A DNA stretch of 64,000 bases, taken from NCBI GenBank assembly GCA_019429105.1, contig JAHYJE010000006.1, forward strand, positions 1-64,000, given 5' to 3'. Positions 6,085 through 14,471 of the stretch are shown one piece after another. The translations under genes and the position numbers were made by a program. Each line of letters begins with the position of its first letter. Within the stretch, counting starts at the first letter, position 1. This DNA comes from Syntrophobacterales bacterium. GTDB taxonomy: Bacteria; Desulfobacterota; Syntrophia; Syntrophales; UBA5619. Under the pieces are notes generated by a model. It had not been told where the DNA came from and searched no databases. It saw only the letters and a list, made by a program, of their open reading frames with translations.

Positions 6085-7458
6085 ATGAAGGTTTTTTTGC
6101 AGATCAAAAGAGCCGTTTCCCGGCGGATGACGCCTCCCCGGATCTTTCTGCTCGGATTTGCCGCCGTGATTCTGATCGGGGCGGTTCTTCTCTGGCTGCC
6201 CTTTGCGGCGGGAAAAGAACGTCTGAGTTTTTTGGACGCGCTCTTTTCTTCGGCCTCCGCAGTCTGCGTAACCGGTCTTGCCGTTATCGATATCGGCAGC
6301 GATCTTTCCTTTGCCGGTCAGCTCGTGACACTGTTTCTTTTTCAAATCGGCGGCTTGGGAATAATAACCTTTTCCGTGGTCATCTTCGGGCTGTTGGGAC
6401 GGGGCGTTTCTTTCCGGGAAAGGGAACTGATTCAGAGCGCCTTTCTCTATGCCCCCCGGCGTGATTTTGTCCCTGTAATCAAAAAAGTCCTGAAATTTAC
6501 CTTTATTGCCGAGGCTGCCGGGGCGGTTATTTTGTTTATCCGCTTCCTTTTTGATTTCCCCCCCGCGACCGCCTTGTACCATGCCATCTACAATGCCGTT
6601 TCCGCCTTCAACAATTGCGGTTATTCGCTTTTTTCCGACAGCCTCGCCCGGTATCAGGGAGACTGGATTGTCAATTTCACGGTCATGGGGCTCATCATTC
6701 TCGGCGGCATAGGGTTCATGGTGCAGCAGGAGATCATCTTATACTACCGGGGCAAACTCAAAAGGCTTTCGCTGCATACCAAGCTTGTTCTCTTGACAAC
6801 GACGATGCTTATTTTTGCGGGCGCCTTCTTTTTTTATCTGTTTGAGGCACACAACGCCCTCAATGGCGTTTCCGGGCCGGCTGCTTTTCTTATTTCCCTT
6901 TTCCAATCCGTAACCTCGCGTACCGCGGGGTTCAGCACTGTGGCGATCGACCGTTTGACTAACGAAACGGTTCTGTTAATGATAATTTTGATGTTCATTG
7001 GCGCCTCTCCCGGTTCGACCGGCGGCGGCATCAAGACAACCAGTTTCACGCTGATGGTGCTGATGATCTGGAACCGCATGCGGGGGCGTTTCAATGTCAG
7101 CGTTTTCAACCGGCAGATTCCCCGGGAGATTCTGGGGCGCGCCATTTCGATCGTTTTTGCCGCATTTTTGCTGATCGGGATTGTTGTCTCGATCATGCTG
7201 TTCTTCGGGGGAGAAAATGCCCTGCCGCCCGAGGCGACCCGCCACCTTTTTATCGAGTACATATTTGAGACAGTTTCCGCATTCGGCACAGCCGGCCTTT
7301 CCATGGGAATAACGCCGGAAATGAGCAATATTCAGAAGGCAGCCATTATTGTAATAATGTTTGCAGGCCGGGTGGGGCCGCTGACGCTGGCCTTTTCCTG
7401 GTATTCCGAGGGAAAAAACGAAATCGAGTATGCTGAAGAGTCCGTTATGGTCGGTTAG
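6085..7458 (+). CDS. trkH: Trk/Ktr-type potassium uptake protein, pore subunit
   Basis: This 457-residue integral membrane protein has the four repeated pore regions of the Trk/Ktr family, seen as SAVCVTGLAV, SAFNNCGYSLF, SVTSRTAGFSTV and SAFGTAGLSMG. The glycine in each repeat lines the selectivity filter. Length is closer to KtrB/short TrkH than to the 483-residue E. coli TrkH. It imports K+ together with the cytoplasmic gating ring encoded by the next gene (7486). The operon lspA-trkH-trkA has gaps of only 15 and 27 bp. Confidence 0.92.
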   Translation: MKVFLQIKRAVSRRMTPPRIFLLGFAAVILIGAVLLWLPFAAGKERLSFLDALFSSASAVCVTGLAVIDIGSDLSFAGQLVTLFLFQIGGLGIITFSVVIFGLLGRGVSFRERELIQSAFLYAPRRDFVPVIKKVLKFTFIAEAAGAVILFIRFLFDFPPATALYHAIYNAVSAFNNCGYSLFSDSLARYQGDWIVNFTVMGLIILGGIGFMVQQEIILYYRGKLKRLSLHTKLVLLTTTMLIFAGAFFFYLFEAHNALNGVSGPAAFLISLFQSVTSRTAGFSTVAIDRLTNETVLLMIILMFIGASPGSTGGGIKTTSFTLMVLMIWNRMRGRFNVSVFNRQIPREILGRAISIVFAAFLLIGIVVSIMLFFGGENALPPEATRHLFIEYIFETVSAFGTAGLSMGITPEMSNIQKAAIIVIMFAGRVGPLTLAFSWYSEGKNEIEYAEESVMVG

Positions 7459-7485
7459 ACCGGTGAAAGAGGGGAGGGATTAGCG

Positions 7486-8136
7486 ATGCAGCAGCGGGTG
7501 GTTGTGATCGGTCTTGGTATCTTCGGTTTCAATATCGTGAAGGAGTTGTATGAAGGCGGTTTAGAGGTCATCGCCATCGACAAGGACAAGCAGGCCGTGC
7601 AGGCGGCAAGGGACTGCTCCACAAAGGCGATGGTCGCCGACGGCACAAACCGGGAGGTGATGGAGCAGATCGGCATCCAGGAGGACGACGTCGTCATCGT
7701 TTCGTTCGGCGAGGATCTCGCGGCCTCGACGCTGACCACCCTGCACCTCCGGCAGATGAAAATCCGGACGATCATCGTCAAGGCCCCGAACGAGGAACAC
7801 AAGCTGATTCTGGAAAAGGTCGGGGCGACGGAGGTGATGATTCCGGAGCGGGAGGTTGCCCACAAGGTCGCCAGAAGTATCATCTCGCCAAATGTCCTTG
7901 AATATTTGCCCCTTTCCGACGATTATGTAATCTCCGAGGTGGCCCCTCCCAATGAATTCTTTGGGAAAAGCATTGCCCAACTGCAATTGCGCTCACGTTA
8001 CCATGTCGAGGTTATCGCTATCAAGGATGTGCTTTCCGACAAACTGACCATGATCCCGAAGGCGGACTTCATCTTCAAGGACGGCGATGTGCTGGTTGTC
8101 GTCGGCAAGGAGGAAGAGATCAGGAAGATAAAGTAA
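7486..8136 (+). CDS. trkA: Trk/Ktr potassium uptake regulatory subunit, RCK domains
   Basis: The 216 residues contain one TrkA-N Rossmann domain (VIGLGIFG near residues 8-15, acidic IDKD after beta 2) and one TrkA-C domain (SEVAPPNEFFGKSIAQ onwards). This single N+C layout is like KtrA/KtrC rather than the duplicated E. coli TrkA. It binds nucleotides (NAD(H), ATP/ADP) and gates the TrkH pore encoded just upstream. An AGAGGGGAGGGAT stretch provides the ribosome binding site. Confidence 0.93.
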   Translation: MQQRVVVIGLGIFGFNIVKELYEGGLEVIAIDKDKQAVQAARDCSTKAMVADGTNREVMEQIGIQEDDVVIVSFGEDLAASTLTTLHLRQMKIRTIIVKAPNEEHKLILEKVGATEVMIPEREVAHKVARSIISPNVLEYLPLSDDYVISEVAPPNEFFGKSIAQLQLRSRYHVEVIAIKDVLSDKLTMIPKADFIFKDGDVLVVVGKEEEIRKIK

Positions 8137-8281: not shown

Positions 8282-9913
8282 TCAAGCGGGATCGTCTGCT
8301 CGGGGGTGACGATCCGGCCTTGGGACCCCCTGCTTTTTCAATATCAGGCCTGCCAAAACGCCGGTTAATCTGCCGTCGCGCACGGCAATCTGTCCGTTTA
8401 CCGTTACCATCCGGATGCCTGTCGGGTACTGATGAGGATTGGCGAAGGTTGACCGGGCGGCGATTTTCGCCGGATCAAACAGCGCCAGATCGGCGATATA
8501 TCCGGAGCGGATGACGCCCCGGTCGGTCAGGCCAAGACGGCGCGCGGGCAGGCCGGTCATCTTGTAAACGGCCTTTTCCAGTGAAAGCAGTCCTCTTTCC
8601 CGAACGTAGTTTTCCAGAACCAGGGGGAAGGTTCCATACGAGCGGGGGTGGGTCATTCCCTCGGCCTTGGCGGCGGCAAGCGCCAGGCCGTCCGAACCGA
8701 CGGCAACGAAGTCGCTTTGCATGATGGACTCGACGTCGGTGGGAGAAAGCGAGAAAAAAGCGGCGTGGATGGAGCTGTCCTCCTGGAGGATGCGCAGCGC
8801 CGTCGCCTCGGGCGCCAGATTCCAAAAAGCGGCCGCATCGGCAAGGGTTTTCCCCGACAAAAAACGGAGTTTCTCGGAAGCGATTCCGGTAAACATGATT
8901 GTTGCGGCGTCGCCGCGCTCGGCGATCAGCTTTTTTATTGCCTCTGTAAGCTTCGGAATCAGCTTCGCGTCAGCAAGGCGTTTGCCGGTTTCCTGAGCGC
9001 CGCCGGCGAGTGCCCAGCCGGGAAGCAGTACGGAGAGGGTGGTCTCTGTGGCCTCATAGGGGTACTGATCGGCGCCGATGTCAATGCCTTGCCGTCTGGC
9101 CTCCGCTATCCTGTTCAGGGCTTCCTGGGCCCGGCCCCAATTTGCCTTTCCCAGCGCTTTCAGGTGGGAAACCTCGATGGCTGCGCCTGATTTTCTGCCG
9201 ATTTCGATAGCCTCATCAATTGCGGCAAACAGGGTTGTTCCTTCGCCCCGGATGTGGCTCGCGTAAAGCGCGTATTTCCGGGCGAGAACCAAGGCCAGTT
9301 CGATCAACTCCTCTGTGCCGGCGAAGCTGCCGGGCGGGTAGATCAGGCCTGAGGACATTCCCCACGCCCCTTGAGCGAGCATTTCTTCCAAAAGACGCTT
9401 CATCTCTCCCGTTTCCTGCCGGTCCGGCGGGCGATTTTCCATTCCCATAACCGCAATCCGCAACGCACCGTGCCCGACCAGCGGCGCCAGGTTCACGCCG
9501 ATGCCGCCTTTTTCGAGCTTATCGGCAAAACCCGCCAGATCGCTCCACTTGTTTCCGCCCTGGGGAAAAACGAACTCATGCATGGCGAGATACTCTTCGA
9601 GCATTCCCCTGCGATTTTCGGCGACAGGGAAAAAACCCAGGCCGCAATTGCCGGTCACGTCGAGGGTTACGCCCTGCAGCAGCTTGCTTTCGGCAAAAGG
9701 ATTCTCGAAGATATTGGCGTCGGTGTGGCTGTGAATATCGATAAAGCCCGGCGCCAGAACAAGGCCGACGTCTGCGACGACGACCGGGGCAGCGCCGCAC
9801 AATGCGGGGGCTATGTCCGCAATGCGGTCCCCGGCGACAGCGACGTCCGCTTCATACGGCGCCCCGCCGGTTCCGTCCACAACCGTAACTTTTTTGAACA
9901 GGAGATCGTACAT
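8282..9913 (-). CDS. N-acyl-D-amino-acid deacylase family amidohydrolase
   Basis: This 543-residue protein belongs to the D-aminoacylase branch of the amidohydrolase superfamily, which hydrolyses N-acyl-D-amino acids. The metal-binding HSHTD is at residues 61-65, with later YASHIRGEG and EVSHLKALGK histidine motifs and VGSDG carrying the catalytic Asp. The N- and C-terminal beta-sandwich segments (KKVTVVDGTG; TVNGQIAVRDG) are intact. It is the last gene of a minus-strand set with the proteins at 10110 and 11154, which suggests amino-acid or peptide breakdown. The exact substrate is not predictable. Confidence 0.85.
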   Translation of the reverse strand: MYDLLFKKVTVVDGTGGAPYEADVAVAGDRIADIAPALCGAAPVVVADVGLVLAPGFIDIHSHTDANIFENPFAESKLLQGVTLDVTGNCGLGFFPVAENRRGMLEEYLAMHEFVFPQGGNKWSDLAGFADKLEKGGIGVNLAPLVGHGALRIAVMGMENRPPDRQETGEMKRLLEEMLAQGAWGMSSGLIYPPGSFAGTEELIELALVLARKYALYASHIRGEGTTLFAAIDEAIEIGRKSGAAIEVSHLKALGKANWGRAQEALNRIAEARRQGIDIGADQYPYEATETTLSVLLPGWALAGGAQETGKRLADAKLIPKLTEAIKKLIAERGDAATIMFTGIASEKLRFLSGKTLADAAAFWNLAPEATALRILQEDSSIHAAFFSLSPTDVESIMQSDFVAVGSDGLALAAAKAEGMTHPRSYGTFPLVLENYVRERGLLSLEKAVYKMTGLPARRLGLTDRGVIRSGYIADLALFDPAKIAARSTFANPHQYPTGIRMVTVNGQIAVRDGRLTGVLAGLILKKQGVPRPDRHPRADDPA

Positions 9914-10109: not shown

Positions 10110-11117
10110 TCACTGCCGGGCAAGCCAGGAAGAAATCACGCCGGCATCGAGCATGGTGCGCAGGCCGGCCGACGCCTGGACAATCCTTTTGACGGCATTT
10201 ACGGCCATTGCGCAGGTTGCCGTGTCTCCGGGGAGTCCGCCCTTGACCGTCACATCCAGGGGCGGTTCTCCAGCGATGAAGGTGCGGTCTTTCGGGTCGG
10301 GGTGCCCGAAATAGGCCTGAAGGTGGAGCGTGATGACGGCGTTTCCGGCGTGATATCCCTGACAGAGCTGATCGACGCCGCAGACCCGGCCTGGGGCAAT
10401 CTCAATGAACTGGCTGCGGAGCGTCTTCGTCGCCATCACGGGATAGACGCGCTCCTCGATCCTGTCGAGCGCAATCCCCAGCGCGGCGGCGATCAGTTGC
10501 ACGGATTCGGAGAACCCGACATGACGAATGGTCAGCTCCGCAACCTTCTTTTCGAACTCGGCGAGGTCGAGTCCCGCGCCGATTTTCTGCTGGAAGGGGA
10601 GCCTGCGGAGCGAGGCGTCCTGAAAACGCTCGATCAGTACCGAGTTAACCAGACTGCAGGCGCCGCTTATGAAAACAGGCAGGATATCCATCGCAAAGCC
10701 CGGATTGACGCCGGTGCCCAGAACGGCCAGCCCTTTTTCTTTCGCCTTTTCGTCAATCAGGCGCGACTCTTCGGGGCAGTTTTGAAAAGGGTAGGAGAGC
10801 TGTTCGCAGGTCGAAACGACGTGCCAGCCCGCCTCGAGGCAGGTGATAATCTGCGGCGTGATCCTTTTCAGCCAGGAACCGGTGCAGACGATTGCCACCC
10901 CCGGGACGGCTGCCGAATGCAGCGCCTCTGGAATGGTGGGCCTTACCATTACGCCCAGCGGGGGCAGGTCCAGAATCTCTCCCAAATCCCGGTTATTGTA
11001 CCCGGGGGCGATGTCGGCGGCCGCCGCGAGCCGCAAATTGGGCCGCCGGGATGCTATTTTCGCAATGAGCTGGCCTACGGGGCCAAGGCCGATAATGGCA
11101 ACGGGGATCTGGTTCAT
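10110..11117 (-). CDS. Dihydrodipicolinate reductase-like / 2,4-diaminopentanoate dehydrogenase family protein
   Basis: The 335 residues begin with a Rossmann fold (AIIGLGPVG, residues 8-16) of the DapB N-terminal type and continue with a family-specific C-terminal domain containing GTGVNPGFAMD. This layout is that of the NAD(P)H-dependent amine dehydrogenases related to 2,4-diaminopentanoate dehydrogenase of ornithine fermentation, not true DapB, which is shorter and has a different substrate motif. The true substrate is unknown. It is 36 bp downstream of the acyl-CoA synthetase gene and upstream of a D-aminoacylase, so an amino-acid fermentation role is a reasonable inference. Confidence 0.75.
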   Translation of the reverse strand: MNQIPVAIIGLGPVGQLIAKIASRRPNLRLAAAADIAPGYNNRDLGEILDLPPLGVMVRPTIPEALHSAAVPGVAIVCTGSWLKRITPQIITCLEAGWHVVSTCEQLSYPFQNCPEESRLIDEKAKEKGLAVLGTGVNPGFAMDILPVFISGACSLVNSVLIERFQDASLRRLPFQQKIGAGLDLAEFEKKVAELTIRHVGFSESVQLIAAALGIALDRIEERVYPVMATKTLRSQFIEIAPGRVCGVDQLCQGYHAGNAVITLHLQAYFGHPDPKDRTFIAGEPPLDVTVKGGLPGDTATCAMAVNAVKRIVQASAGLRTMLDAGVISSWLARQ

Positions 11118-13363: not shown

Positions 13364-13592
13364 GGGCAAGTCGGAAAAGGCCCAAGACTAAAGTGCGCGG
13401 ACTGAATCTCTTAATAATTAATCGCTATAAGATGATTATTGTGATATAAAAATACATGGAATCAGCAAGATGGAGAGCAAGCCGCTGTCAAAAACATTAT
13501 AAAGAAACTTTATTCCGGAGACGAGCCGGGGCACAGGCAGATTCATTAAAAAGCAGTCACGGAAAAACAAATCTTTACCTTAGGAGGATTTC

Positions 13593-14471
13593 ATGGATGA
13601 TCTTAGGCCTTACCGCTCTTTCGTCAGTTACATAGATCGCAGCCGGGAGTACTACGCCGCCCAGGGCTACACCAGGCCTTACGCCTGGGCCCATCACGAA
13701 GAAGTCCCTTTTGCCCCGCTGCAAGAACCGCTCTCCGAATGCCGGGTGGGATTGGTGACAACAGCAGGCAGAACGTCGGCGGAGGGGCTGATCGGGGCTG
13801 GAGGGCGAATGCGTGGCCCCTACGCGGAGCCGGTGAACCCGCCGCCGAAAAATCTATACACCAACGATCTGTTTTGGGACAAGAATGCGACCCATACTGA
13901 GGATGTTGACAGTTTTCTGCCAATAAACCGCCTTGCCGAGCAAGCCGAAGCAGGCAGAATCGGGTCGGCTTCGCCCCGCTTCTACGGAGTCCCCACCGAT
14001 TACAGCCAGAAGCGAACAGCACAGGATGTCGCCCCCCGGATACTCGAGTGGTGCCGGGAGGATGGCCTCGCCGCCGTGATTCTGATGGCGCTTTGACCGG
14101 TTTGCCACCAGACCGTGAGTCTGGTAGCAAGGCACTTGGAGGCGAATGGCCTCCCCACGGTGGTCATGGGCTGCGCGCGGGACGTCGTTGAAGAGTGCGG
14201 CGTTGCCCGCTTCATGTTCACCGATTTTCCGCTGGGGAATCCCTGTGGAAAACCCTGGGACAAAGAGATGCAGCGCTCGATCGTCGGAAGTGCGCTCGAG
14301 CTGCTGGAGCGTGCCTGGATGCCGCGCACCACTGTCCAGACGCCGTTTCACTGGGAAAACGAAACATGGCGCGCTGCCTTCATGCGGGTGGACGACAGCA
14401 ACCGCGAGACGCTTGCCCGGGCAGGCGAGGAGCGGCGCCGCCTTCAGGCCGAAATCAAAAAAGTACGGTGA
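13593..14471 (+). CDS. Selenoprotein of the glycine/sarcosine/betaine/D-proline reductase subunit B family (Sec at UGA 14094-14096)
   Basis: The frame from ATG 13593 (AGGAGG upstream) reaches TGA at 14094 and then stays open in the same frame to TGA 14469-14471, giving 292 residues with Sec at 168. The context ILMAL-U-PVCHQTVSLVARHL is the UxxCxxT redox motif of PrdB/GrdB proteins, and conservation continues on both sides (VGLVTTAG before, NGLPTVVMGCARDVVE after). A hairpin with a GU-containing loop follows the UGA at the right distance. GrdB/PrdB proteins reduce amino-acid substrates; this short stand-alone form has no GrdA/PrdA partner nearby, so its substrate is unknown. A caller that stops at UGA would break the gene in two. 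Confidence 0.9.
14107..14125 (+). promoter_or_regulatory. Bacterial SECIS-like hairpin
   Basis: ACCAGAC and GTCTGGT form a perfect 7-bp stem with the loop CGUGA. The loop G and U fall 21 and 22 bases after the U of the UGA codon, close to the spacing of the essential loop G/U in the E. coli fdhF SECIS. This is the expected position for SelB binding in bacteria, where the element lies inside the coding sequence. Confidence 0.8.

Follow-up and report, generated by a model that had tools for sequence, protein, structure and literature searches.

A stand-alone GrdB/PrdB-like selenoprotein from a Syntrophales genome, probably a partner-free selenoreductase

The gene at 13593-14471 of the window (the whole 64,000-nucleotide stretch of DNA analysed) is predicted to encode a 292-residue selenoprotein of the GrdB/PrdB superfamily, and the evidence as a whole is best explained, with a probability of about 0.68, by a selenocysteine (Sec) reductase which acts on an electrophilic small molecule without partner subunits. 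On evidence that is comparative throughout, its status as a selenoprotein is close to certain, because the TGA codon is shared among relatives, Cys homologues exist, the sel genes are present and the hairpin downstream is preserved, as codon-level conservation and compensatory changes show.

The gene, its in-frame UGA and the downstream hairpin

The window corresponds to contig C6 in a draft genome of 3.1 Mb (95 contigs, rated 100% complete), whose nearest named relatives are Syntrophales and Deltaproteobacteria MAGs. The relevant features are as follows.

13582-13587, forward strand: Shine-Dalgarno sequence AGGAGG; most orthologues have AGGAGG or GGAGG motifs ahead of the start
13593-14471, forward strand: predicted stand-alone PrdB/GrdB-like selenoprotein, 292 amino acids; matches TIGR04483 at 4.7e-26, under its cut-off
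14094-14096, forward strand: in-frame UGA, predicted Sec168, motif U-P-V-C-H-Q-T; TGA in 80 of the 80 best homologues, Cys in two alphaproteobacterial ones
14107-14125, forward strand: SECIS-like hairpin of 7 bp with loop CGUGA; fold z -3.2, covariation and reduced synonymous variation

From the ATG at 13593 to the TGA at 14469-14471 the gene runs in a single frame, with the TGA at 14094-14096 as its sole interruption, and the translation around Sec168 reads ALUPVCHQTVSLVARHLE. A preliminary description of this DNA had proposed a 292-residue protein with the motif U-P-V-C-H-Q-T at the UGA, both of which were found again, and had expected automatic annotation to split the gene, as standard gene calling indeed does (13593-14096, 167 amino acids, and 14115-14471, 118 amino acids). 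Its view that family similarity continues in one frame through the UGA is borne out by 24 orthologous loci (own copy included) among 297 relatives, each with exactly one TGA at the same codon and, for the other loci, 51-84% identity to the protein.

A wider GTDB scan used two conserved peptide patterns, one of which had the motif in its Cys version, and hence was not biased against Cys. TGA occupies the Sec168 codon in all of the 80 best by score of 272 relatives, a set that under-represents Cys forms of the rarer and more distant kinds, owing to the two-peptide search and the ranking. These 80 homologues all run through the TGA rather than ending there, and derive from at least six phyla: Thermodesulfobacteriota, Actinomycetota (Acidimicrobiia), SAR324, Myxococcota, Pseudomonadota (Alpha-, Beta- and Gammaproteobacteria) and Chloroflexota. 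Cys aligns with the UGA in plasmid-borne homologues of Roseomonas haemaphysalidis (46% identity) and Haematobacter massiliensis (43%). A few copies deviate in their number of TGA codons, with three in frame in one relative of the same family (G004:C47:49018-49845) and two in the G144 and G278 copies; these are either multi-Sec forms or decayed genes.

All four genes of the selenocysteine machinery are present in the source genome, namely selA (594.9 bits), selB (343.8 bits), the tRNA-Sec gene selC (77.1 bits) and selD. Neither refuting condition named in the preliminary description, a lack of this machinery or homologues ending at the UGA, was observed. The selD gene (G000:C38:6060-6983) holds one in-frame TGA of its own, and SelD here is probably a selenoprotein itself. 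Among 18 further carrier genomes of other lineages, SelB scores above cut-off in 17 and is found as a fragment in the 18th.

The hairpin consists of a left arm (14107-14113), the loop CGUGA (14114-14118) and a right arm (14119-14125), placing a conserved, GU-looped SECIS-like element directly 3' of the UGA. Its first base is the 11th after the UGA, with 10 bases between, in agreement with the preliminary description. The UGA and the following 37 nt fold with -17.1 kcal/mol (z -3.2), the strongest downstream fold among the 19 TGA-split open frames of the window, each defined by a TGA flanked in the same frame by two open stretches of 80 codons or more. All seven stem pairs are kept in 70 of 87 sequences and 14 more lack one pair, while three stem pairs show compensatory double changes (C-G/T-A; G-C/A-T; A-T/T-A/G-C). 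Codon choice within the hairpin is restricted, with entropies of 0.29 bits at His172 (0.89 at other conserved His codons), 0.10 bits at Gln173 (0.74-0.96 at other conserved Gln codons) and 0.46 bits at Leu177 (1.79-2.28 at other conserved Leu codons). Eight Acidimicrobiia hairpin variants carry the GU-less loop GAUCG, and a scan of the window at Rfam gathering thresholds gave no match. SelB and Sec-tRNA would read the UGA, helped by this hairpin.

That the UGA might instead be a true stop, a sequencing error or the mark of a pseudogene gains something from the draft state of the genome in its 95 contigs and from the homologues, which are mostly MAG-derived. The chance of this is practically negligible, the reading being effectively refuted by the same TGA in 80 of the 80 best homologues and the existence of Cys forms, and further opposed by the covariation of the hairpin, the sel machinery and the conservation of the protein 3' of the UGA.

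Relation to PrdB and GrdB, and the missing partners

The preliminary label of a GrdB/PrdB-type protein holds at the level of the superfamily and is refined at the level of the family, since the protein is neither GrdB nor PrdB and falls in its own clade, where U-P-V-C replaces U-G-T-C. Identity as D-proline reductase PrdB or glycine reductase GrdB was rejected on scores, motif and clade together. The PrdB model TIGR04483 gives 91.7 bits (E 4.7e-26) against an equivalog cut-off of 300, the GrdB-type models give 30-43 bits, with 32-37 bits in the comparison with TIGR01917 and TIGR01918, which falls short of membership, and Pfam PF07355 (GRDB) gives 19.7 bits against a gathering threshold of 22, although 32 of 51 family members match PF07355 at E <= 0.01 (best 3.6e-11). 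U-G-T-C was read in four PrdB and one GrdH from annotated plasmids. In a maximum-likelihood tree the UPVC clade stands on a long branch away from PrdB and GrdB (support 100/100) with the Cys members nested inside it, while long branches make the placing of GrdH and of a second copy from the same genome unsure.

Compared with PrdB (TIGR04483), the protein is homologous over residues 40-254 and shares the Sec-bearing UxxC motif and the His after it, but it reads U-P-V-C-H-Q rather than U-G-T-C-H-R and carries N- and C-terminal extensions (292 versus 238-242 amino acids). With GrdB, GrdF and GrdH (PF07355, TIGR01918) the C-terminal half aligns, the Sec site included, whereas the N-terminal half of GrdB is missing (292 versus about 430 amino acids). 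Also close are proteins named by NCBI as "glycine/sarcosine/betaine reductase selenoprotein B family protein" (for example WP_207415257.1 and WP_035710215.1), of equal length and 43-46% identical, with CP[VI]CHQT at the site, Cys replacing Sec.

PrdB pairs with a PrdA-type protein and GrdB works with GrdE and GrdA, none of which is found in the source genome. In proline and glycine reductases the amine is activated through Schiff-base formation with a carbonyl group, pyruvoyl or similar, a step that is not available to this protein because it has no pyruvoyl partner. PF09338, the GrdE/PrdA pyruvoyl family, is absent from the source genome, the PrdA proprotein included, and from 32 other carriers (33 of 33), and PF04723 (GrdA) from all 15 carrier genomes tested, the source genome being 100% complete and completeness being unstated for carriers outside its phylum; known Enterococcus, Ligilactobacillus and Peptoclostridium records, run as positive controls, were detected in both searches. 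The earlier remark that no other Grd/Prd subunit lies near the gene can thus be widened to the whole genome for GrdE/PrdA and GrdA, and the view that this is not a normal amino-acid reductase agrees with the missing pyruvoyl partner.

A role as the Sec subunit of a genuine proline/glycine-type reductase, with the gene for the pyruvoyl partner at another locus, would fit with PrdB as the best family model and with a Sec site homologous to the PrdB/GrdB active site. It is very improbable and largely refuted, given the absence of PF09338 and PF04723 in these genomes, a score far under the PrdB cut-off, the UPVC motif and the separate clade. The UPVC clade is accordingly regarded, with high confidence, as a separate, partner-free family of the GrdB/PrdB superfamily.

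Most copies of the gene stand alone, and clustering of gene neighbourhoods for a universal partner found none outside Acidimicrobiia and no context conserved across phyla. One of the largest first-pass neighbour clusters turned out to be an antisense ORF spuriously called across the gene and was discarded. In 25 Acidimicrobiia loci (within L103-L142), drawn from two divergent subgroups, the gene is paired with one for an alpha/beta-hydrolase weakly similar to 3-oxoadipate enol-lactonase, which either overlaps its end or follows within approximately 100 bases. Various acyl-CoA genes lie near the Syntrophales loci in no fixed arrangement.

Several further observations concern the surroundings. 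A second PrdB-like selenoprotein gene of the same genome (G000:C14:34009-34629; L076:8467-9786, minus strand) encodes 439 amino acids with one TGA, the motif UPNCTRA and a C-terminal extension of about 180 amino acids of no recognised family; it scores under all GrdB/PrdB cut-offs and adjoins a ClC-type chloride channel. In the window, a TrkH/TrkA-like potassium transport pair, identified by eye, lies at 6085-8136, 5.5-7.5 kb upstream of the gene, and the Roseomonas Cys form has TrkA/TrkG and a chloride channel just upstream (L161:2426-5738); the recurrence of such neighbours is possibly a coincidence. A 2,4-diaminopentanoate dehydrogenase-like protein (10110-11117, reverse strand; 233 bits, with the cut-off at 400) and an amidohydrolase resembling D-aminoacylase (8282-9913, reverse strand) hint at unusual amino-acid breakdown nearby.

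Predicted structure, proposed mechanism and rival functions

A model predicted from a 51-sequence alignment (pLDDT 92.3, pTM 0.91) places Sec168 between a strand (161-165) and a helix (169-184), so that in the model Sec168 would sit at a helix start, a usual position for a nucleophile. Invariant or near-invariant residues are Y13, D15, R18, W32, D104, P110, G132, Y137, P169, H172, Q173, R180, E200, P213, G215 and W254. Structure searches with two AlphaFold models (pLDDT 79.6 and 92.3) gave no PDB match at E <= 0.001, and a sequence-profile search gave no credible relative with a solved structure.

The Sec168 selenolate, by analogy with GrdB and PrdB, would make the same chemical attack as in those enzymes, and since there is no pyruvoyl partner to activate an amine, the substrate itself must be electrophilic. 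Disulfides and peroxides are candidates, as are compounds with a polarised C-X or C-O bond beside a carbonyl or acyl group. Resolution of the adduct by Cys171 would then yield a selenenylsulfide, from which a general dithiol donor, for example thioredoxin, would regenerate the enzyme. The protein would thus be a one-subunit, thiol-driven selenoreductase rather than an amino-acid-fermenting enzyme. This reductase mechanism is given an even chance. In remote members (L043, L044, L047 and related loci) the motif is U-P-L-D-H-Q, in which Sec is kept and Asp stands for Cys171, so that some of the wider family do without the Sec-Cys resolving pair; a selenoether, not a selenenylsulfide, may be the shared intermediate.

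Those remote members are what would be expected of a partner-free selenoenzyme with a selenoether as its key intermediate, whose reaction would be the reductive removal of a leaving group from carboxylates or carboxylate derivatives, dehalogenase-like or C-O/C-S cleaving and resembling that of FarB. In FarB of fluoroacetate-reducing Synergistota, the Sec of a GrdB-family protein is likewise proposed to attack a carbon, that of the C-F bond of fluoroacetate, and not an amine (PMC10838667), and some copies have acyl-CoA, dehalogenase-like or alpha/beta-hydrolase genes in their vicinity. FarB, however, is a GrdB homologue that works with FarE and the glycine reductase A/C system (PMC10838667), whereas FarE- and GrdA-type proteins are absent here, and the acyl-CoA neighbours vary by lineage and are of a kind common in these genomes, which leaves this function unlikely. 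Somewhat unlikely too is a general thiol or peroxide redox protein with a thioredoxin- or peroxiredoxin-like protective role, in place of a metabolic enzyme. The UxxC motif would suit such a role, as would the mostly single-gene transcription units in many phyla, lineages of oxic water included; yet no thioredoxin-fold or other PDB match was obtained, and invariance at many positions beyond the motif suggests a pocket for a specific substrate. A partner-free Sec reductase of an electrophilic small molecule is retained as the preferred reading.

Marine "PrdB" proteins and significance

Among the known selenoprotein families of the Sargasso Sea, "proline reductase PrdB" with Sec in UxxC ranked third in abundance, with 42 genes (PMC1088965), and the GOS survey recorded 235 Sec members of "PrdB" (PMC2398784), a name that a 2026 review retains under D-proline reductase (PMC13188914). 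These survey proteins resemble the UPVC clade in being marine, pfam07355-related and bearing Sec in UxxC, and differ in having been named as a D-proline reductase subunit (PMC1088965, PMC2398784). Because genomes of marine Acidimicrobiia and SAR324 carry the UPVC form without PF09338, the abundant Sec "PrdB" proteins of the ocean probably belong, in large part, to the UPVC clade, as judged from marine genomes rather than from the survey reads. The clade occurs in marine, lake and sediment lineages, those of surface ocean and lake water included, and its different active-site motif and missing partners make "proline reductase" a probable misnomer for a large part of the data.

It was already known that the superfamily holds selenoproteins, and FarB was all that a literature search for a stand-alone family of PrdB- or GrdB-like proteins brought up. 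What appears to be new is the recognition of a partner-free clade separate from PrdB, together with its retention of Sec and its spread across phyla. On balance, and by a slight preference, it may constitute its own class of selenoenzyme, a single-subunit, pyruvoyl-free Sec reductase present also in lineages of oxic water, which would take in many ocean "PrdB" proteins and be unrelated to proline. As a single gene of approximately 292 amino acids, with Sec almost always in preference to Cys across phyla, it offers a tractable target for a new selenium-dependent reaction.
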